Assembly (NCBI GenBank): GCA_025929895.1
Contig: JAICPI010000005.1
Span: 1 to 64,000, forward strand
Source: Thermoleophilia bacterium
GTDB taxonomy: Bacteria > Actinomycetota > Thermoleophilia > Gaiellales > Gaiellaceae
Reading direction: 5' to 3'
Length of the DNA stretch: 64,000 bases
The notes below the pieces were generated by a model that worked only from the letters and a program-made list of their open reading frames with translations, was not told where the DNA came from and made no database searches. Below, piece by piece: positions 4,418-37,682 of the stretch (position 1 is the stretch's first letter; every line of letters begins with the position of its first letter). The position numbers and the translations under genes are program-made.

Positions 4418-4780
4418 TTATCGGGAGCGTGCCCGCCAGGCGATTTGCGCCGCCACCACCAGGAGCAGCACGCCGAACAGCCGCCGGAGCACGTCCTCGC
4501 GCAGCGAGAGGGCGAGGACCGCGCCGAGCTGCACGCCGACGATCGAGGCGACGCCGAGCCAGAGCGCCGCGCGCCAGCGGACGTTGCCGTACGAGCGCTG
4601 GCGCCACGTCCCCGCTGCGACCGTCGGCAGGATCGCGGCGAGCGACGTCGCCTGCGCCTCCACCTGGCCCAGCCCGAGCGCGACGAGCGTCGGCACGAAC
4701 AGGATCCCTCCGCCGACGCCGAAAGTGCCGGCGACGAGGCCGGCTGCGAGCCCCAGCAGGATCGCGAGCGTGACCGTCAC
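4418..4780 (-). CDS. Half-size TauE/SafE-family exporter, second half
   Basis: A 120-residue membrane protein equivalent to the C-terminal half of a TauE/SafE anion exporter (a family that includes sulfite and organosulfonate exporters). It has about four membrane segments. The hallmark glycine motif GLVAGTFGVGGGILFVP is at residues 14-30, and it ends in a short basic tail. A complete TauE/SafE protein has about 240-270 residues with this motif once in each half. Here the halves are separate genes joined by an ATGA overlap (4777-4780), so the products probably form a heterodimer. The substrate is unknown. Confidence 0.82.
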   Translation of the reverse strand: MTVTLAILLGLAAGLVAGTFGVGGGILFVPTLVALGLGQVEAQATSLAAILPTVAAGTWRQRSYGNVRWRAALWLGVASIVGVQLGAVLALSLREDVLRRLFGVLLLVVAAQIAWRARSR

Positions 4781-5118
4781 AGGAGCATCCAGACGCCCAC
4801 CGCGGCGACGAACCCGGCGAACAGGAAGGAGAGCTCCCGTGCGCGGATCCGCTGCTGCACCGTCGCGCCGACCGCCGCCCCCAGCGCGGCCGGAAAGCCG
4901 ACGAGCGCCGCGTGCGCGAAGTCGACCTCGCCTGCGATCGCGAACGTGATCGCCCCCGCGAGCGCCGTGATCCCGATCGCCGCGAGCGACGTCGCCGTCG
5001 CGACGTGCGGCGTGTACGCACAGAGCAGGAGGAGCAGGGGCACGACGACGATCCCGCCGCCGACGCCGAAGAGCCCGCCCATGAAGCCCGCGGCGACGCC
5101 GATCAGCACGAGCCTCAC
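4777..5118 (-). CDS. Half-size TauE/SafE-family exporter, first half
   Basis: A 113-residue membrane protein matching the N-terminal half of a TauE/SafE exporter. GFMGGLFGVGGGIVVVPLL is at residues 11-29, followed by three further hydrophobic segments, and the frame ends cleanly after VGVWMLL. It starts with GTG at 5118, 6 bases after a TACGAT -10 element, and is translationally coupled to the second half through an ATGA overlap. Each half keeps its own start, stop and motif, so this reads as a genuine two-gene transporter rather than a frameshift. Confidence 0.82.
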   Translation of the reverse strand: MRLVLIGVAAGFMGGLFGVGGGIVVVPLLLLLCAYTPHVATATSLAAIGITALAGAITFAIAGEVDFAHAALVGFPAALGAAVGATVQQRIRARELSFLFAGFVAAVGVWMLL

Positions 5119-5123
5119 CCGCG

Positions 5124-5130
5124 TATCGTA
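5124..5130. promoter_or_regulatory. Shared two-way -10 element (TauE/SafE pair and otsB)
   Basis: The heptamer TATCGTA reads as TATCGT on the plus strand, 6 bases before the otsB GTG (5136). It reads as TACGAT on the minus strand, 6 bases before the TauE/SafE GTG (5118). The two start codons are separated by only 17 bp, leaving no room for leaders or separate promoters. Confidence 0.6.
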
Positions 5131-5135
5131 GGCGC

Positions 5136-5846
5136 GTGGAGCCGGACGAGCTGCTCGGGCGCCTGCGCGACGAGCCGCGACGCGCGGCGATCCTGCTCGA
5201 CGTCGACGGCGTGCTCGCGCCGATCGTCGACCGGCCCGAGGACGCGCGCGTGCCCGACGAGACGCGCGGGGAGCTGCGCCGCCTCGCGGATGCCTACGCG
5301 CTCGTCGCCTGCGTCAGCGGCCGCACGGGGAGCGATGCGTGCCGGATCGTCGGGCTCGACGAGCTCGTCTACGTCGGCGAGCACGGACTGGAGCTCGACC
5401 CGGAGGCGCCGCAGTGGCGTGAGCGCATCCGCGCGTTCGCCGAGACGGTCGCCTGGCCGGTCGAAGACAAGGGCCTGACGCTCTCGTTCCACTACCGCAC
5501 GGCTGAGGACCCCGAGGCGGCGGAGGCGTACCTGCTCGAGACGGCGGAGCGGGCGCGGAACGCCGGCCTCGTCCCGCGATTCGGGCGCATGGTGCTCGAG
5601 GTGCGCCCCCCGCTCGAGACGAACAAGGGGACCGCCGTCCGCGCGCTGCTCGGCGGGCGCGGGGTCACACGGGCGCTCTACGCGGGCGACGACTCGACCG
5701 ACCTCGACGCGTTCCGAGCGCTCGACGACCTGGAGTGGGGCATCCGCGTCGGCGTCGTGTCGGACGAGAGCCCGCGCGGGATCGCGGAGGCTGACATCGT
5801 CGTCGGCTCGCCGGCGGAGCTGCTCGAGCTGCTCCGGACGCTCTAG
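5136..5846 (+). CDS. otsB: Trehalose-6-phosphate phosphatase
   Basis: A HAD-superfamily phosphatase that converts trehalose 6-phosphate to trehalose, the last step of the OtsA-OtsB pathway. The nucleophile motif ILLDVDGVLAPI is at residues 19-30, the family-typical GEHGLE follows near residue 85, and GDDSTDLDAF is the C-terminal metal-binding motif. At 236 residues it is of normal length. GTG start, leaderless. No otsA is next to it. The stop overlaps the convergent polX stop by 4 bases. Confidence 0.87.
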   Translation: MEPDELLGRLRDEPRRAAILLDVDGVLAPIVDRPEDARVPDETRGELRRLADAYALVACVSGRTGSDACRIVGLDELVYVGEHGLELDPEAPQWRERIRAFAETVAWPVEDKGLTLSFHYRTAEDPEAAEAYLLETAERARNAGLVPRFGRMVLEVRPPLETNKGTAVRALLGGRGVTRALYAGDDSTDLDAFRALDDLEWGIRVGVVSDESPRGIAEADIVVGSPAELLELLRTL

Positions 5847-7552
5847 CTCTTCTTCAGCTTCTCGATCTGCTTCCACGTGCGCGTGTTCAGCACGTGGTCC
5901 TTCGTCAGCCACCCGCGCCGCGCCTGCGCGATCCCGACCTCCATCCAGTCGAGCGCGCTGAGCTGATGCGCGTCCGTGTTCACGGGCACCTTCAGGCCCG
6001 CCTCGCCCGCGCGGCGCGCGTTCACGTCGCGCAGGTCGAGCCGGTCGGGCTGCGAGTTCAGCTCCAGGAACGTCCCCGTCTCGAGCGCCTTCTCGATCAC
6101 GCGCTCGAGGTCGATGTCGGCCGGGCCGCGCTTGTTGATCTTCCGCGTCGTCGGATGGCCGATGCAATGCACGCGCGGGTGCTCCATCGCGCTGACGAGG
6201 CGCTCGGTCGGGCTCTTGTCGAACGCCTGGTGCAGCGACGCGACTACCCAGTCGAGCTGCGCGAGCAGATCCTCGGCGACGTCGACCTCGCCGTTCGCGC
6301 GGATGTTCGCCTCGATTCCGCGCAGGATCCGGAACGGCGCCAGCCGCTCGTTCAGCGCCTCGACCTCGCGCCACTGGGCCTCGAGCCGCTCCTCGCGCAG
6401 GTAGTGGGAGTGGTCGGTGATCGCCATGTACTGGTAGCCGCGGTCGATGCACCGGCGCGCCATCTCCTCGATCGTGTTCTTCCCGTCCGAGGACCACGTC
6501 GAGTGCAGGTGCAGGTCGCCGCGCACGTGCTTCGACTCGACGAGCGTGGGCAGCTCGCCCTTGCGCGCCGCGTCGAGCTCGCCGAGGTTCTCGCGGAGCT
6601 CCGGCGGGACGAACTGATAGCCGAGGAACTCGTACAGCTCGGCCTCGTCCCGCGTCGTGAAGACCTCGCCCGTGTCGACCGTCTTGACGCCGTACTCGGA
6701 GATCGAGAGCCCCCGTTTCACGGCCGCCTCGCGGAGCGCGACGTTGTGGTCCTTCGAGCCCGTGAAGTGCTGGAGGAGGTTCCCGAAGGACTCCGGCGGT
6801 ACGACCCGGAGGTCGAAGCGGAGCGCGTCGTGCGAGACGACCGTCGCCTTCGTGTCGCCGTGCGCGGCGACCTCCGAGACCCATGGGAGCGCGACGAAGT
6901 GGTCGGTCAGCGCGCGTGGGTCCTGCGCGGTCGCGATCACGTCCAGGTCGCGGAACGTCTCCTTGCGGCGCCGCACGCTGCCCGCCTCGGAGACGAGGTC
7001 GGCCGCGGAGTGCTCGCGCAGGGCCTCCACCACCGCCAGCACCGGCGCGAGGCCGGCGCCGAGCAGCGGTCGCACGGGCTCGAGCGTCTGCTCCTGCTTC
7101 AGCGCGGCGAGGATGCGCTCCTCGGTGCGCGCGCCGAACCCCGACAGCGTGCGGAGGCGCTCGGCCTCGGCCGCGGTCCGGAGATCGGCGACCGTCGTGA
7201 TCCCGAGCTCTTTCCAGATCTTCGCCGCCGACTTCGGGCCGAGACCCGGCAGCCGCATGAAGGTGACGACCTCCGGCGGGACGCTCGCCTTCCGCTTGGT
7301 CAACGCGTGCATCTCGCCGTCGTCGACGATCTGCACGATCTTCTCCTCGATCGTCTTGCCGATCCCCGGGAGGTCCTTCGCCTTCCCGTCGAGCGCGAGC
7401 TGCGCGACGGCTCCGGGGGTCTCGCGGACGCGCGTGGCTGCGCGACGGTAGGCGATCACGCGGAACGAGGCCTCTCCCTCGAGCTCGAGGAGGTCGGCCA
7501 GCAGCTCGAGCTGCTCGGCCACCTCCTGGTTCCTCGGGAGCGTCTTCGCCAC
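5843..7552 (-). CDS. polX: DNA polymerase/3'-5' exonuclease PolX
   Basis: A 569-residue family X DNA polymerase for gap filling in DNA repair. In order: helix-hairpin-helix segments (LPGIGKTIEEKIVQI and LPGLGPKSAAKIWKEL), the polymerase palm with GSVRRRKETFRDLDVI (metal-binding Asp pair in DLD), and a C-terminal PHP nuclease domain. The PHP domain has DLHLHSTWSSDG, ITDHSHYL, a middle Glu and NTDAHQ. This domain order is standard for bacterial PolX. It starts with GTG, 8 bases after TATGAT on the minus strand. Confidence 0.93.
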   Translation of the reverse strand: MAKTLPRNQEVAEQLELLADLLELEGEASFRVIAYRRAATRVRETPGAVAQLALDGKAKDLPGIGKTIEEKIVQIVDDGEMHALTKRKASVPPEVVTFMRLPGLGPKSAAKIWKELGITTVADLRTAAEAERLRTLSGFGARTEERILAALKQEQTLEPVRPLLGAGLAPVLAVVEALREHSAADLVSEAGSVRRRKETFRDLDVIATAQDPRALTDHFVALPWVSEVAAHGDTKATVVSHDALRFDLRVVPPESFGNLLQHFTGSKDHNVALREAAVKRGLSISEYGVKTVDTGEVFTTRDEAELYEFLGYQFVPPELRENLGELDAARKGELPTLVESKHVRGDLHLHSTWSSDGKNTIEEMARRCIDRGYQYMAITDHSHYLREERLEAQWREVEALNERLAPFRILRGIEANIRANGEVDVAEDLLAQLDWVVASLHQAFDKSPTERLVSAMEHPRVHCIGHPTTRKINKRGPADIDLERVIEKALETGTFLELNSQPDRLDLRDVNARRAGEAGLKVPVNTDAHQLSALDWMEVGIAQARRGWLTKDHVLNTRTWKQIEKLKKS

Positions 7553-7559
7553 TGGCAGC

Positions 7560-7566
7560 GATCATA
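7560..7566. promoter_or_regulatory. Shared two-way -10 element (polX and ppm-like gene)
   Basis: GATCATA gives GATCAT on the plus strand, 6 bases before the GTG at 7572. It gives TATGAT on the minus strand, 8 bases before the polX GTG at 7552. The start codons are 19 bp apart, and the layout matches three other divergent pairs in the window. Confidence 0.55.
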
Positions 7567-7571
7567 GGCGC

Positions 7572-8282
7572 GTGCAGGCGACCGTCTGTCTCCCGACCTA
7601 CAACGAGCGCGAGAACGTCGAGCGGATGGTGCGCGCTCTCGTCGCGGAGGGCGTGCACGTGCTCGTGGTCGACGACAGCTCGCCCGACGGGACCGGCGAG
7701 GTCGCCGACCGGCTCGCGGAGGAGCTGGAGCAGGTCGCGGTGCTGCACCGCGCGGAGAAGGAGGGGCTCGGACCGGCGTACCTCGCCGGCTTCCGCCGCG
7801 CGCTCGCGGACGGCGCCGAGCTCGTGCTGGAGATGGACTGCGACTTCTCGCACGACCCGCGGGACGTGCCGCGGCTGATCGCGGCGGCCGAGAACGGAGC
7901 GGACCTCGTGCTCGGGTCGCGCTACGTGCCGGGCGGGCGCATCCCGAACTGGGGGCTGCTCCGACGGTTCATCTCGCGGGGCGGCTGCGTGTACGCGCAG
8001 CTCTGGCTCCAGACGCGGCTGCGCGACCTGACGGGCGGCTTCAAGTGCTACCGGCGCGCGGTGCTGGAGACGATCGACCTGGACGCGATCGAGTCGAGGG
8101 GGTACGCGTTCCAGATCGAGGGGACGTACCGCACGCTGCGCAAGGGCTTCCGCGTCGTCGAGGTGCCGATCACGTTCGTCGACCGCGAGGAGGGCGGCTC
8201 GAAGATGTCGAAGGCGATCGTGCTCGAGGCGATCTGGAAGGTACCGGCGCTCCGCCTCGCCGCGCTCGCAGGCCGCCTCTAA
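7572..8282 (+). CDS. Polyprenol monophosphomannose synthase-like glycosyltransferase (GT2)
   Basis: Transfers mannose (probably from GDP-mannose) to a polyprenyl phosphate, giving a lipid-linked donor for cell-surface glycans or protein mannosylation. The GT-A fold starts at once with LPTYNERENVERMV. VVDDSSPDGTG is the nucleotide-binding motif, MDCDFSHDP the metal/donor motif, and GSRYVPGG and LTGGFKCY follow as in dolichol-phosphate-mannose synthases. The 236 residues lack C-terminal membrane segments, as in the single-domain Ppm1 type. The sugar specificity is inferred from the family. It converges with thiL, 3 bases apart. Confidence 0.87.
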   Translation: MQATVCLPTYNERENVERMVRALVAEGVHVLVVDDSSPDGTGEVADRLAEELEQVAVLHRAEKEGLGPAYLAGFRRALADGAELVLEMDCDFSHDPRDVPRLIAAAENGADLVLGSRYVPGGRIPNWGLLRRFISRGGCVYAQLWLQTRLRDLTGGFKCYRRAVLETIDLDAIESRGYAFQIEGTYRTLRKGFRVVEVPITFVDREEGGSKMSKAIVLEAIWKVPALRLAALAGRL

Positions 8283-17387: not shown

Positions 17388-18122
17388 CTACGGGGTACGG
17401 CGGCGGAGGGTGGCGGCCGCGAGGGCGAGCGCGACGAGCGTGACGCCCACGACGATCGCCGCGTCCCTGGCGACGAGCGCGGCGTCGCCGCCCTCGACGG
17501 CTCGCCGGAGCCCGTCGTAGGCCCACGTCAGCGGCAACGCGTACGAGACCCACTCGAGCGCGTCCGCCATCCGCTCGCGCGGGACGAGCAGGCCGCAGAG
17601 CAGGAACTGCGGCAGGACGAAGGCCGGCATGAACTGCACCGCCTGGAACTCCGACTGCGCAAAGGCGCTCGCGAACAGGCCGAGCGCCATCCCGAGCAGC
17701 GCGTTGCAGACCGCGAGCGCCGCGACGACGACGACCGAGCCCTCCACGTCCAGCCCGAGCAGCCCGAACGCGACGGCGCAGGTGACGGCGGCCTGGAGCG
17801 CAGCCACGAGCGCAAACGCCAGCGCGTAGCCGGCGAGGAGGTCGAGCTTCGACAGCGGCAGCGTCATCAGCCGTTCGAGCGTGCCCGTCGTCCGCTCGCG
17901 CAGCATCGTCACCGACGTGACGACGAACATCATCACGAACGGGAAGATCCCGACGAGCGGGCCCCCGACGCGGTCGAACGTCTCGGGCTGGCCGTCGAAG
18001 ACGTAGCGGAAGAGCGCGAGCAGGAGCGGCGGCACGACGAAGACGAGCGCGACCGTGCGCCGGTCGCGCCGCAGCTGGTGAAGCACGCGTTCGGCGGTCG
18101 CCAGCGCGACGCGGCCGTTCAC
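17388..18122 (-). CDS. ABC-2 type transporter permease
   Basis: A 244-residue membrane subunit of an ABC exporter with about six membrane segments. FPFVMMFVVTSVTMLRERTTGTLERLMTLPLSK is the characteristic ABC-2 stretch after TM2, followed by PQFLLCGLLVPRERMADALEWVSYALPLTWAYDGL near the end. GTG start overlapping the ATPase stop (GTGA, 18119-18122), so the two subunits are co-translated. Such pairs often export drugs or lipids; the substrate is not deducible. Confidence 0.9.
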   Translation of the reverse strand: MNGRVALATAERVLHQLRRDRRTVALVFVVPPLLLALFRYVFDGQPETFDRVGGPLVGIFPFVMMFVVTSVTMLRERTTGTLERLMTLPLSKLDLLAGYALAFALVAALQAAVTCAVAFGLLGLDVEGSVVVVAALAVCNALLGMALGLFASAFAQSEFQAVQFMPAFVLPQFLLCGLLVPRERMADALEWVSYALPLTWAYDGLRRAVEGGDAALVARDAAIVVGVTLVALALAAATLRRRTP

Positions 18123-18823
18123 GCGCCCTCCACGAGCACGAGGAACGCGTCGTTCAGGTTCTCCGCCCGAGTGCGCGCGAGCAGCGCCTCGGGCTCGCCC
18201 GCTGCCACCACCCGACCCTCGCGCATCAGCACGAGCGAGTCGCAGCGCTCCGCCTCGTCCATCACGTGGCTCGAGACGAGCAGCGTCGCCCCCTCCGCCG
18301 CGAGGCGATGGAACGCGCTCCAGAGGTCGCGGCGCAGCACGGGATCGAGCCCGACCGTGGGCTCGTCCAGCACGAGCAGCTCCGGCTCTCCGAGCAGGGC
18401 GACCGCAAGCGAGACGCGCGCCTGCTCGCCTCCCGAGAGCTCGCGCACGGGTCGGCGCGAGCTGCGCGAAAGGTCGACGAGCTCGAGCGCGCGCTCGACG
18501 CGCTCGCCCGGGACGCGGAGGATTCGCGCGAAGTACGCGAGGTTCTCGCGCGCGGCCAGGTCGCCGTAGACCGACGGCGCCTGCGTCACGTAGCCCACGC
18601 GCGACCGGAGCGGCGGCGATCCGGCGGGCAGCCCGAGCACCTCGACCGTCCCACCCCGCACGACCTGCACCCCGACGATCGCGCGCAGCAACGTCGTCTT
18701 GCCGGAGCCGCTCGGCCCGAGGAGGCCCGTCACGCGCCCGGAGGGCACTTCCAGGCTCACGGACCGGAGCGCGTGCGTCGAGCCGCGGACGACGTCGAGC
18801 CCCCGGACACGAACCGCGGTCAC
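18119..18823 (-). CDS. ABC transporter ATP-binding protein
   Basis: A 234-residue ATPase of the daunorubicin-resistance/ABC-2 exporter group. Walker A GPSGSGKTT, Q-loop VTQAPSVYGDLAARENL, signature LSGGEQARVSLAVALL, Walker B LLVLDEPTVGLD and the switch His in VSSHVMDEAERCD. GTG start with TATGGT 6 bases upstream on the minus strand. It lies back to back with the NDH-2 gene, with start codons 17 bp apart. Confidence 0.93.
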   Translation of the reverse strand: MTAVRVRGLDVVRGSTHALRSVSLEVPSGRVTGLLGPSGSGKTTLLRAIVGVQVVRGGTVEVLGLPAGSPPLRSRVGYVTQAPSVYGDLAARENLAYFARILRVPGERVERALELVDLSRSSRRPVRELSGGEQARVSLAVALLGEPELLVLDEPTVGLDPVLRRDLWSAFHRLAAEGATLLVSSHVMDEAERCDSLVLMREGRVVAAGEPEALLARTRAENLNDAFLVLVEGA

Positions 18824-18828
18824 CCTGC

Positions 18829-18835
18829 GACCATA
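18829..18835. promoter_or_regulatory. Shared two-way -10 element (ABC exporter and NDH-2)
   Basis: GACCATA reads GACCAT on the plus strand, 6 bases before the ATG at 18841. It reads TATGGT on the minus strand, 6 bases before the GTG at 18823. The whole spacer between the two start codons is 17 bp. Confidence 0.6.
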
Positions 18836-18840
18836 GCCCC

Positions 18841-20091
18841 ATGCCCGACGATCGCCTTGCGCGCGGTGGCCTCCTGGTCGTCGGCGGCGGCTACGCGGGA
18901 AGCGTCGTCGCCCGACGCCTCGGGGAGTGCACGATCGTGAACCCCGAGAACTACATGCTCTTCCGCCCGCTGCTGGCGGAGGCCGCGTCGGGAACGCTCG
19001 AGCCCAGGCACGTCGTCGTCCCGCTCCGCGTGCTCTGTCCCCGCGCCGAGCTGATCGTCGGCAGCGCGACTCGGCTCGACGAGTCGACGCGCACGCTCGT
19101 CGTCGCGACGGACGCCGGCGAGTACGGCGTGCGCTACTGGAACCTCGTGATCGCGCTCGGCGCGACGACGCGGACGCTGCCCGTGCCGGGCCTCTCGGAG
19201 CACGGCCGCGGCTTCAACGACCTCGCCGACGCGATCGAGCTGCGAAACCACGTGCTCCGCGAGCTCGAGGCCGCGGACGCCGAGCTCGACCCCGAGCGGC
19301 GGCACCGGCACCTCGGCTTCGTGTTCGTCGGCGCCGGCTACGCAGGGACGGAGGGCCTCGCCGAGCTCCAGGACCTCGTGCGCGACGCGCTGCGCTACTA
19401 CCCGCGGCTCCGCAACGCGCCGCAGCGCTGGGTGCTCGTCGAGGCGCAGGACCGGATTCTCCCCGAGGTGCAGGAGTCGCTCGCCGCGTACACCGCGCAC
19501 CTCCTCGAGCGGCGCGGCGTCGAGATCAGGACCGGCACGCGGCTCGAGTCGGTCGACTCCGAGTCCGCGACGCTCTCGGACGGCACGACGATCCCGACGC
19601 ACACGCTCGTCTGGACCGCGGGAGTCGCGCCGCACCCGCTCGTCGAGGCGTTCGGGCTCCCCGTCGACGAGCGCGGCCGCGCGCGCGTCGACCAGCACCT
19701 CCGCGTCGAGGGCCGGCGGGACGTCTGGGCGCTGGGCGACTGCGCGCGCGTCCCGAACGCCGCGGCGACCGGCCCCGACCCGCCCACGAGCCAGCACGCG
19801 CTCCGGCAGGCACGCCGGCTCGCGCGGAACCTCGTGCGGAAGCCACGGCCCTACCGCTACCGCATGATCGGCCAGGGCGCAACCCTCGGGCGCTACAAGG
19901 GAATCGCGGAGATCTTCGGACTCCGCTTCCGCGGCTTCCTCGGCTGGTTCGCGACCCGGACGTACCACCTCTACCAGCTCCCCCTGCTCACCCGGAAAGC
20001 CCGGGTCGTGGCCGACTGGACCGTCGCGCTCTTCTTCCGGCGCGACATCTCCGAGCTCGGATCGCTCGGGCACCCGCGCCGGCTGCGCTAG
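18841..20091 (+). CDS. ndh: Type II NADH dehydrogenase (NDH-2)
   Basis: A 416-residue FAD-dependent, non-pumping NADH:quinone oxidoreductase at the membrane surface. FAD site VVGGGYAGSVVA near residue 13, NADH site VFVGAGYAGTEGLAEL near residue 160, the FAD-binding GDCARVPN near residue 300, and a hydrophobic C-terminal region (GWFATRTYHLYQLPLLTRK) that anchors such enzymes. ATG start, leaderless. A hairpin follows the stop. Confidence 0.88.
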   Translation: MPDDRLARGGLLVVGGGYAGSVVARRLGECTIVNPENYMLFRPLLAEAASGTLEPRHVVVPLRVLCPRAELIVGSATRLDESTRTLVVATDAGEYGVRYWNLVIALGATTRTLPVPGLSEHGRGFNDLADAIELRNHVLRELEAADAELDPERRHRHLGFVFVGAGYAGTEGLAELQDLVRDALRYYPRLRNAPQRWVLVEAQDRILPEVQESLAAYTAHLLERRGVEIRTGTRLESVDSESATLSDGTTIPTHTLVWTAGVAPHPLVEAFGLPVDERGRARVDQHLRVEGRRDVWALGDCARVPNAAATGPDPPTSQHALRQARRLARNLVRKPRPYRYRMIGQGATLGRYKGIAEIFGLRFRGFLGWFATRTYHLYQLPLLTRKARVVADWTVALFFRRDISELGSLGHPRRLR

Positions 20092-36070: not shown

Positions 36071-36495
36071 TGCTCCACCGCGAACGTCAGCGTGCCGCGG
36101 ACGGCCAGCTCGCCGTCCACCGTCGCGCGTGCCTTGCCTCGCCCGATCGGACCGCGGACCTGCTCGAGCGAGCACTCGAGCGTCAGCTCGTCCCCCGGGC
36201 GGACGACGCGCTTGAAGCGCACGTCGTCGATCCCGGCGAAGAGCGCGAGCTTCCCGCGGTTCTCCTCCTGCACGAGCACGGCCACCGCGCCCGCCTGCGC
36301 GAGCGCCTCGACCATCTTCACCCCGGGCATGATCGGGTTTCCGGGGAAGTGGCCGGCGCAATCGGCCTCGGTCACGCTCTTGCGCGCGACCACGCGCACG
36401 CCGGGCTCGAGCTCGACGACCTCGTCGAGGAGGAGGAAGGGGTCGCGGTGCGGGAGGATCTGCTCGATCTCGGCCTTTCCGAACGGCGCGTTCAC
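36067..36495 (-). CDS. fabZ: 3-hydroxyacyl-ACP dehydratase
   Basis: 142-residue hot-dog-fold dehydratase. [21 protein letters not shown] and the catalytic His in [23 protein letters not shown] match FabZ. The GTG at 36495 forms a GTGA overlap with the upstream sigma factor, so fatty-acid enzyme synthesis is directly coupled to translation of that sigma factor. The frame is open further upstream, but the family length fits this start. Confidence 0.94.
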
Positions 36496-37073
36496 GCCGC
36501 GTACTCGAGCCGGCGCCGGAGCGCGGCCCGCGCCCTGTGCGCGTAGCACTTCGCCGTTCCGACGGGCATCGCCGTCGCCTCCGCGATCTCGGCGAAGGAG
36601 TAGCCGTACGCGTCCTTGAGCACGACCACGCGCGCCTGGGCCGGGGGCAGCTCGAGCAGGCAGGCGCGCAGCTCGTCCGCGTCGCCGAGATCCGCCGTCG
36701 GGGCCGCCGGGGCGTCGTCCGGCAGGGGCTCCCAGAGCTTCTTGCGGGCCGCGGAGTCGTGGCAGGTGTTCGCCACGAGCCGGTGCAGCCAGGTCGCGAA
36801 CGCCGCCTCGCCGCGGAACTGCCCAAGCCGGGCGCAGAGCTTCGCCAGGGCCTCCTGGGCCGCGTCCCGGGCATCCTCGCGGTCGCCGAGCAGGCGTCGC
36901 GTCAACCGCTCCACCCGCGGCTGATGGCGGGCGCAGAGCGCCTCCAGGGCACGTGGGTCGCCGTCCTTCGCGCGCTTGACCAAGATCGGGTCGCTCAACC
37001 GTTCGTAGGCGAGCGTCGGGCCCGCCCGGAGGGGTTGCCGGATTGGACGGCGCTTGGCTCCGGGGGGTTGCAC
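36492..37073 (-). CDS. ECF-type RNA polymerase sigma factor leading the fab operon
   Basis: About 193 residues. Region 2: [27 protein letters not shown] and [45 protein letters not shown]-like sequence. Region 4: [47 protein letters not shown]. The GTG at 37073 is preferred over 37079 as TAGAGT stands exactly 6 bases before it. No anti-sigma gene is adjacent. It is translationally coupled to fabZ, suggesting it either controls or senses fatty-acid synthesis; no target promoter is known. Confidence 0.88.
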
Positions 37074-37078
37074 GGCCA

Positions 37079-37085
37079 CACTCTA
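37079..37085. promoter_or_regulatory. Shared two-way -10 element (sigma-fab operon and birA)
   Basis: CACTCTA reads TAGAGT on the minus strand, 6 bases before the GTG at 37073. It reads CACTCT on the plus strand, 7 bases before the birA ATG at 37092. The start codons are 18 bp apart. Fatty-acid synthesis and the ligase that biotinylates acetyl-CoA carboxylase would thus share one promoter core. Confidence 0.55.
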
Positions 37086-37091
37086 CGGCCC

Positions 37092-37682
37092 ATGGCCGAC
37101 TCGCTCGCCGCGGACGCCGTCCTGCCCCGCCTGCGTGGCCGCTTCGGCCGCGAGTACACGTTCGTCGAGCGCTGCGACTCGACCCAGCGGCTGCTCCCGG
37201 AGGACGCGCCCGAAGGGGCCGTGTCCGCGACCGACGAGCAGACGGCCGGCCGCGGTCGCCTCGGTCGGGCCTGGCTCGCCCCGCCGGGCTCGAGCGTTCT
37301 CGCCTCGATCGTGCTCCGGCCCGACGTCCCCACCGCGCGGCTCGCCGAGCTCTCGGTCGTCGCCGGCCGGGCCTGCGCCGCCGCGATCGCGGAGCTGACC
37401 GGGCTCGAGCCCACGGTCAAGTGGCCGAACGACGTGCTCGTCGCGGGACGAAAGGTGGCCGGGATCCTCGCCGAGGCGCGGGAGGGTCGCGTCGTGCTCG
37501 GCGTCGGGATCAACGTGGCCCAGCGCGAGGGGGAGCTCCCCGAGCGCGCCGAGCACCCCGCGACGTCCCTGCTGCTGGAGACCGGCACCGTCCTCTCGAA
37601 GGCCGAGCTGCTCGCCGCGTTCCTCGACCACCTCGAGCGCGAGTACGACGCCTGGGTGGCCGCGGTTCGGCAGACCACATAG
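37092..37682 (+). CDS. birA: Biotin--[acetyl-CoA carboxylase] ligase, short form
   Basis: 196-residue catalytic domain that attaches biotin to the carrier subunit of acetyl-CoA carboxylase. [12 protein letters not shown] is the biotinyl-AMP loop, [19 protein letters not shown] the active site with its Lys, and VVLGVGINV the following strand. There is no N-terminal DNA-binding domain, and the small C-terminal domain of longer BirA proteins is very short or absent. A repressor role is therefore unlikely. Confidence 0.9.

Follow-up and report, generated by a model that had tools for sequence, protein, structure and literature searches.

Results

The window analyzed here, a stretch of 64,000 nucleotides, is contig 44 of the 2.64-Mb genome, in 115 contigs, of a soil actinobacterium (family Gaiellaceae, order Gaiellales, class Thermoleophilia). 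Four of its about 10 divergent gene pairs are compact, with only 17 to 19 bp between the two start codons (Table 1). The initial annotation had singled out these four sites, and its sequences and coordinates are correct: all four intergenic sequences check, the start codons on both sides lie 6 to 8 nt from a heptamer of the -10 type, and there is no room between the divergent starts for a second promoter or a Shine-Dalgarno site. TauE/SafE is encoded by two adjacent half-length genes of 120 and 113 amino acids (4421-5118, minus strand); in the 113-amino-acid gene, which is equally short in relatives, only the C-terminal half of the Pfam profile finds a match. The sigma gene heads an operon with KAS III and acyltransferase genes. 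Relatives speak for its start at 37073, since they retain a GTG or ATG with CAA next to it at the corresponding position and the reading frame that follows is conserved in them; the codon-based caller had chosen a downstream TTG, at 36998.

Table 1. Genes and intergenic elements at the four compact divergent sites of the window
Feature	Position	Strand	Details
Site 1, intergenic	CAC(5116-5118)-CCGCG-TATCGTA(5124-5130)-GGCGC-GTG(5136)		gap 17 bp
Site 1, common heptamer TATCGTA	5124..5130	.	TANNNT in both directions; spacer of 5 nt to each start codon
TauE/SafE, half-length, 113 aa	4777..5118	-	GTG start 5118-5116; Pfam PF01925
otsB, trehalose-phosphatase	5136..5846	+	GTG start; Pfam PF02358
Site 2, intergenic	CAC(7550-7552)-TGGCAGC-GATCATA(7560-7566)-GGCGC-GTG(7572)		gap 19 bp
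Site 2, common heptamer GATCATA	7560..7566	.	TATGAT for polX, GATCAT for glycosyltransferase
polX-type DNA polymerase/PHP	5843..7552	-	GTG start 7552-7550; Pfam PF14791, PF14716, PF02811
Family 2 glycosyltransferase (ppm-like, GT2)	7572..8282	+	GTG start; Pfam PF00535
Site 3, intergenic	CAC(18821-18823)-CCTGC-GACCATA(18829-18835)-GCCCC-ATG(18841)		gap 17 bp
Site 3, heptamer GACCATA	18829..18835	.	TATGGT for ABC gene, GACCAT for ndh
ABC transporter ATPase	18119..18823	-	GTG start 18823-18821; Pfam PF00005
Ndh-like pyridine nucleotide-disulphide oxidoreductase	18841..20091	+	ATG start; Pfam PF07992
Site 4, intergenic	CAC(37071-37073)-GGCCA-CACTCTA(37079-37085)-CGGCCC-ATG(37092)		gap 18 bp if sigma start is 37073
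Site 4, heptamer CACTCTA	37079..37085	.	TAGAGT for sigma gene, CACTCT for birA
ECF-like sigma factor	36492..37073	-	GTG start 37073-37071; Pfam PF04542, PF08281
birA-type biotin protein ligase	37092..37682	+	ATG start; Pfam PF03099

The symmetry of these sites had been described as a heptamer that reads NANNNT on both strands. This is true at all four sites, but it is an empty test: when a -10 element carries A at position 2 and T at position 6, its reverse complement carries both too, so every such -10 element passes. The bare pattern CAY-N6-A-NNN-T-N6-RTG shows no excess in the genome (24 matches versus 26 for the reversed control), and bare NANNNT was discarded as evidence. The informative bases are T1 together with A7, in combination with the exact distances to both start codons. 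Judged in this way, a -10 element can be recognized at the same place on both strands, with A(-11) and T(-7) coinciding, at each site, but the symmetry is complete only at site 1, the one site with TANNNT on both strands. The other three are asymmetric; they offer TANNNT to the minus-strand gene and GANNNT or CANNNT, with A7 only and a G or C in place of T1, to the plus-strand gene.

To place these elements, genes were called by codon usage in the own genome and seven other Gaiellales, about 1.6 Mb of sequence in all; the caller chose starts blind to motifs, and some of them will be wrong. In this set of eight genomes, TANNNT is found 6 to 9 nt before operon-leading starts, with a peak at 6. 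In tandem genes, it ends 6 nt before the start in 41/191 cases when the preceding gene lies 11 to 40 nt away and in 32/413 when the distance exceeds 40 nt. The sides of wide divergent pairs give 29/304, and in operon-internal genes the element is rare at this position (5/474). No enrichment of TTG as a -35 element was seen at any spacing in the unidirectional, wide, or compact sets, Shine-Dalgarno-like motifs are rare before compact divergent genes (3%), and none of the genes with TANNNT at 6 to 7 nt starts with TTG. At the level of sequence, this combination of TANNNT spacing, absent -35 element, and few Shine-Dalgarno motifs is the leaderless signature described for Actinobacteria. Leading genes that lack TANNNT show a peak of GANNNT at exactly 6 nt (24 versus about 8 at other distances). 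The G form can thus be a -10 element, which strengthens the case for the plus-strand genes of sites 2 and 3.

Among the genes of the window, otsB, TauE, and the ABC gene have TANNNT 6 to 7 nt before ATG or GTG and no Shine-Dalgarno motif. TANNNT lies 6 to 8 nt before the starts of polX and the sigma gene, and the glycosyltransferase, ndh, and birA have GANNNT or CANNNT instead. The proposal that the starts are leaderless on both sides agrees with the signature at the level of spacing, with the qualification that the sigma side probably has a leader of 0 to 5 nt.

Compact pairs differ from other genes in the seventh base. Across the eight genomes, 23 of the 27 pairs with gaps of 10 to 30 bp have TANNNT 6 to 9 nt before a start, and 10 of these 23 elements have the form TANNNTA. 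In pairs with gaps above 60 bp, only 3 of 55 elements have this form (Fisher P = 1.5e-4 versus compact pairs), and unidirectional genes yield 3 of 138 (P = 1e-7); in intergenic DNA, the background value for A after T is 0.11. That TANNNTA is common in compact pairs and rare in unidirectional genes suggests that symmetry is maintained only at elements used by two genes.

Pattern counts were made in 129 genomes (103 of Gaiellaceae and 26 of other Gaiellales) with the reversed pattern as the control, an imperfect null in that codon frames differ between the patterns. The strict unit CAY-N5-TANNNTA-N5-RTG has 191 matches in Gaiellaceae versus 26 for the control and 35 versus 17 in the other Gaiellales. 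With N6 spacers the counts in Gaiellaceae are 94 versus 30, and with each spacer one base shorter than in the strict unit (N4) only 2 matches occur in all 129 genomes. A minimum of five spacer bases is expected if the -10 element and the start are 7 nt apart. Coding open reading frames begin exactly at both codons in 49 of the 90 strict sites examined; the same codon spacing without the motif gives such reading frames in 10 of 414 cases. Once the informative bases and the spacings are used, the recurrence is beyond chance, and the suggestion that the arrangement recurs as a class in relatives was borne out, both by the enrichment of TANNNTA in compact pairs and by the excess of the unit across Gaiellaceae. 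Phylum-wide generality was rejected: in a table of 396 genomes of the phylum, read by eye, the strict unit shows no clear excess outside Gaiellales (for example, 15 versus 15 in the 19 genomes of family f28 and 15 versus 30 for the control in the 20 genomes of family f33).

An excess of gaps of 15 to 20 bp, which the initial annotation had expected genome-wide, is present, but it is modest and part of a broader compact class of about 15 to 30 bp. Gaps in the eight-genome sample have a lower wall at about 15 bp and cluster at 15 to 29 bp, and a count that is free of start choice is only modestly raised at 17 to 18 bp. The histogram behind this last count was rejected as evidence, being swamped by antisense pseudo-open reading frames with a 3-base periodicity. 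In a 568-kb sample of stretches of the own genome (about 21% of it, window included), 15 of 81 divergent pairs have gaps of 10 to 30 bp, which extrapolates to roughly 70 compact pairs per genome. Compared to this sampled genome, the window is unusually rich in them. An enrichment of ATG, considered in connection with a T at -18, was also rejected; the start codons of compact pairs, 41% of them ATG, do not differ from those of other genes.

Orthologous pairs were compared for the four sites. TANNNTA is present in 23 of 28 TauE/otsB pairs, where the TauE spacer is 5 in 22, the otsB spacer is 5 in 17, and both are 5 in 13. At two otsB loci (L082 in G019 and L083 in G018), TauE lies about 140 bp from otsB, and TATCGTA is still beside otsB with A7 intact; TauE may there be transcribed from this element with a long leader, or from a promoter of its own. 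For polX and the glycosyltransferase, GATCATA, GATGATA, or GAATATA is found in 22 of 23 pairs, with a glycosyltransferase spacer of exactly 5 in 14 of 22 orthologues and a polX spacer of 5 to 6 in 16; GATCATA stays with polX also at loci without an adjacent glycosyltransferase. The sigma/birA pairs have TAGTCTA or TAGTGTA in 19 of 21 cases, and the CACTCTA of the window is a degenerate copy of this form. The birA spacer is 5 to 7 in 19 of 21, and the sigma spacer is mostly 8 to 10 in relatives, which points to a short leader on that side. The ABC/ndh compact pair was found only in the own genome, and the ABC partner is mostly not conserved in relatives. In several of them ndh faces another divergent gene of about 150 amino acids across GATGCTA, GATGATA, or GATGGTA; among the ndh orthologues (L131-L160), the divergent neighbor changes between genera, and in several a heptamer of the GATGCTA type stays 5 to 7 nt before the start. 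In family f2, birA is preceded by a conserved palindrome, CACNNGGGTATCGTAGCCGCGTG (L001-L003, L005-L007, L009-L011, and L013), even though the opposite GTG opens a reading frame of only 14 to 19 codons; this may reflect a divergent short transcript, a leader peptide, or a one-sided promoter.

Discussion

We consider it likely that each of the four sites is a minimal bidirectional promoter, in which a single -10 element would serve two genes that are leaderless, or nearly so, on both sides. For site 1 our confidence is high, and higher than for the plus-strand genes of sites 2 to 4, where T1 is absent and use of the heptamer is suggested by spacing and conservation. From the observed sequence, spacing, enrichment, and conservation of the sites, we infer how the polymerase would use them. 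One A/T heptamer, ideally TANNNTA, would be the -10 element for both genes, and RNA polymerase, probably with the housekeeping sigma factor, would bind it one way or the other, each orientation excluding the other, with no conserved -35 element. RNA would start about 7 nt past the hexamer, at or a few bases from each ATG or GTG, so that both mRNAs would have no leader or a very short one. With 18 bp from one start site to the other, exactly 17 bp would remain between the start codons; for the four sites and their orthologues, the distances between start sites predicted from the start codons are 18 to 20 bp. Competition of the paired genes for one polymerase site, which had been presented as forced by such an arrangement, is possible and not a necessary consequence. 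All five of the E. coli bidirectional promoters tested fired too weakly for basal competition, and when one direction was activated the other could be repressed (PMC12825309).

A different reading is that only one gene of each pair uses the heptamer, and that its partner has a weak promoter within the neighboring coding region or begins at a different start codon, the symmetry being built into any -10 element. The lack of excess for bare NANNNT, the absence of T1 at sites 2 to 4, and the retention of GATCATA by polX without its adjacent partner are all in line with this. Two results are hard to fit to it, namely, the strong enrichment of A7 in compact pairs only and the preservation of both spacers at 5 to 7 nt in orthologues, including the exact spacer of 5 before most glycosyltransferase genes, and we regard one-sided use as unlikely. 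A shared promoter has its own weak points, as ABC/ndh is not a conserved pair and some start codons may be misassigned.

The palindrome might also be the operator of a dimeric regulator that acts on both genes, with promoters elsewhere or overlapping. The flanks of strict sites (for example, CACCCGGTTAGCCTAACCGGGTG in G026 and CATTTAGTTAGGCTAACTAAATG in G019) are more inverted-complementary than shuffled ones, and some strict sites are perfect 23-bp palindromes. This extended palindromy is strong across all pattern matches but weak in verified gene pairs (0.41 versus 0.35; P about 0.02), and we do not claim it. Moreover, there is free variation in the flanks and at the three central bases, the pairs of genes have no relation to each other, and the spacing to the start codons fits a -10 element, with nothing at one base less; an operator thus seems very improbable. 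We give slightly less credit still to coincidence, that is, a choice by eye of striking cases in a genome with many short gaps. The four sites were indeed picked by eye, in a window where compact pairs are more frequent than in the remainder of the genome sample, and the bare motif has no excess, but the family-wide excess, the sharp spacing cutoff, and the conservation over many genera speak against coincidence.

Returning to the shared promoter, we propose, tentatively and with somewhat less than even confidence, that palindromic, doubly leaderless divergent promoters of 17 to 19 bp form a standing class in Gaiellaceae within a larger compact class. Selection for symmetry would act only where one element serves two genes, and some linkages, kept over many genera, would give coupled or mutually exclusive expression of unrelated genes such as the trehalose-phosphatase and the TauE-type transporter. 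Such units offer a clean setting for polymerase exclusion between two genes without leaders, without a -35 element, and without room for regulators. In leaderless genomes the start codon marks the start of transcription, so that the sequence itself suffices for a count of bidirectional promoters, in uncultured lineages too.

Both two-way promoters and leaderless genes have been described before, but apparently not their compact, conserved combination as a class; our literature search, which was incomplete and did not include the 2021 source paper on bidirectional promoters, found no description of the compact doubly leaderless divergent unit as such. Leaderless genes of Actinobacteria have TANNNT about 12 nt upstream of the start, no -35 consensus, and ATG or GTG starts (Zheng et al. 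2011, PMC3160421; Cortes et al. 2013, PMC3898074), and the genes studied here resemble them in all three respects. In the portions of these two papers available to us, such genes are described as unidirectional, and the sharing of an element by two genes is not treated. Divergent leaderless pairs are known in M. tuberculosis; the single tabulated case, prpD/Rv1129c, is leaderless on both sides according to start-site mapping (PMC3898074). Its starts, at 1254510 and 1254630, are 120 bp apart, so its -10 element is not shared, unlike the arrangement proposed for the compact pairs.

The closest relatives of the units are the bidirectional promoters of Warman et al. (2021, Nat Microbiol), as presented in the accessible parts of two later articles (PMC10268837, PMC12825309). 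These promoters share a pseudo-symmetric -10 element, their divergent start sites lie 7 to 25 bp apart, most commonly 18 bp, and at 18 bp the -7T and -11A of both promoters coincide; they are said to exist in all prokaryotes and to be mostly linked to mRNA synthesis. On this description, the common pseudo-symmetric -10 element is alike, and the predicted start-site distances of 18 to 20 bp fit. The Gaiellales units differ in showing no enrichment of T at -18, the base associated with an ATP start, since GTG is a frequent start codon in them. Both predicted transcription starts here fall on start codons, so that the gap itself is 17 bp, without leaders and without a -35 element. Finally, TANNNTA is rare in the unidirectional promoters of this lineage, and the symmetry is not inherent to its -10 element.
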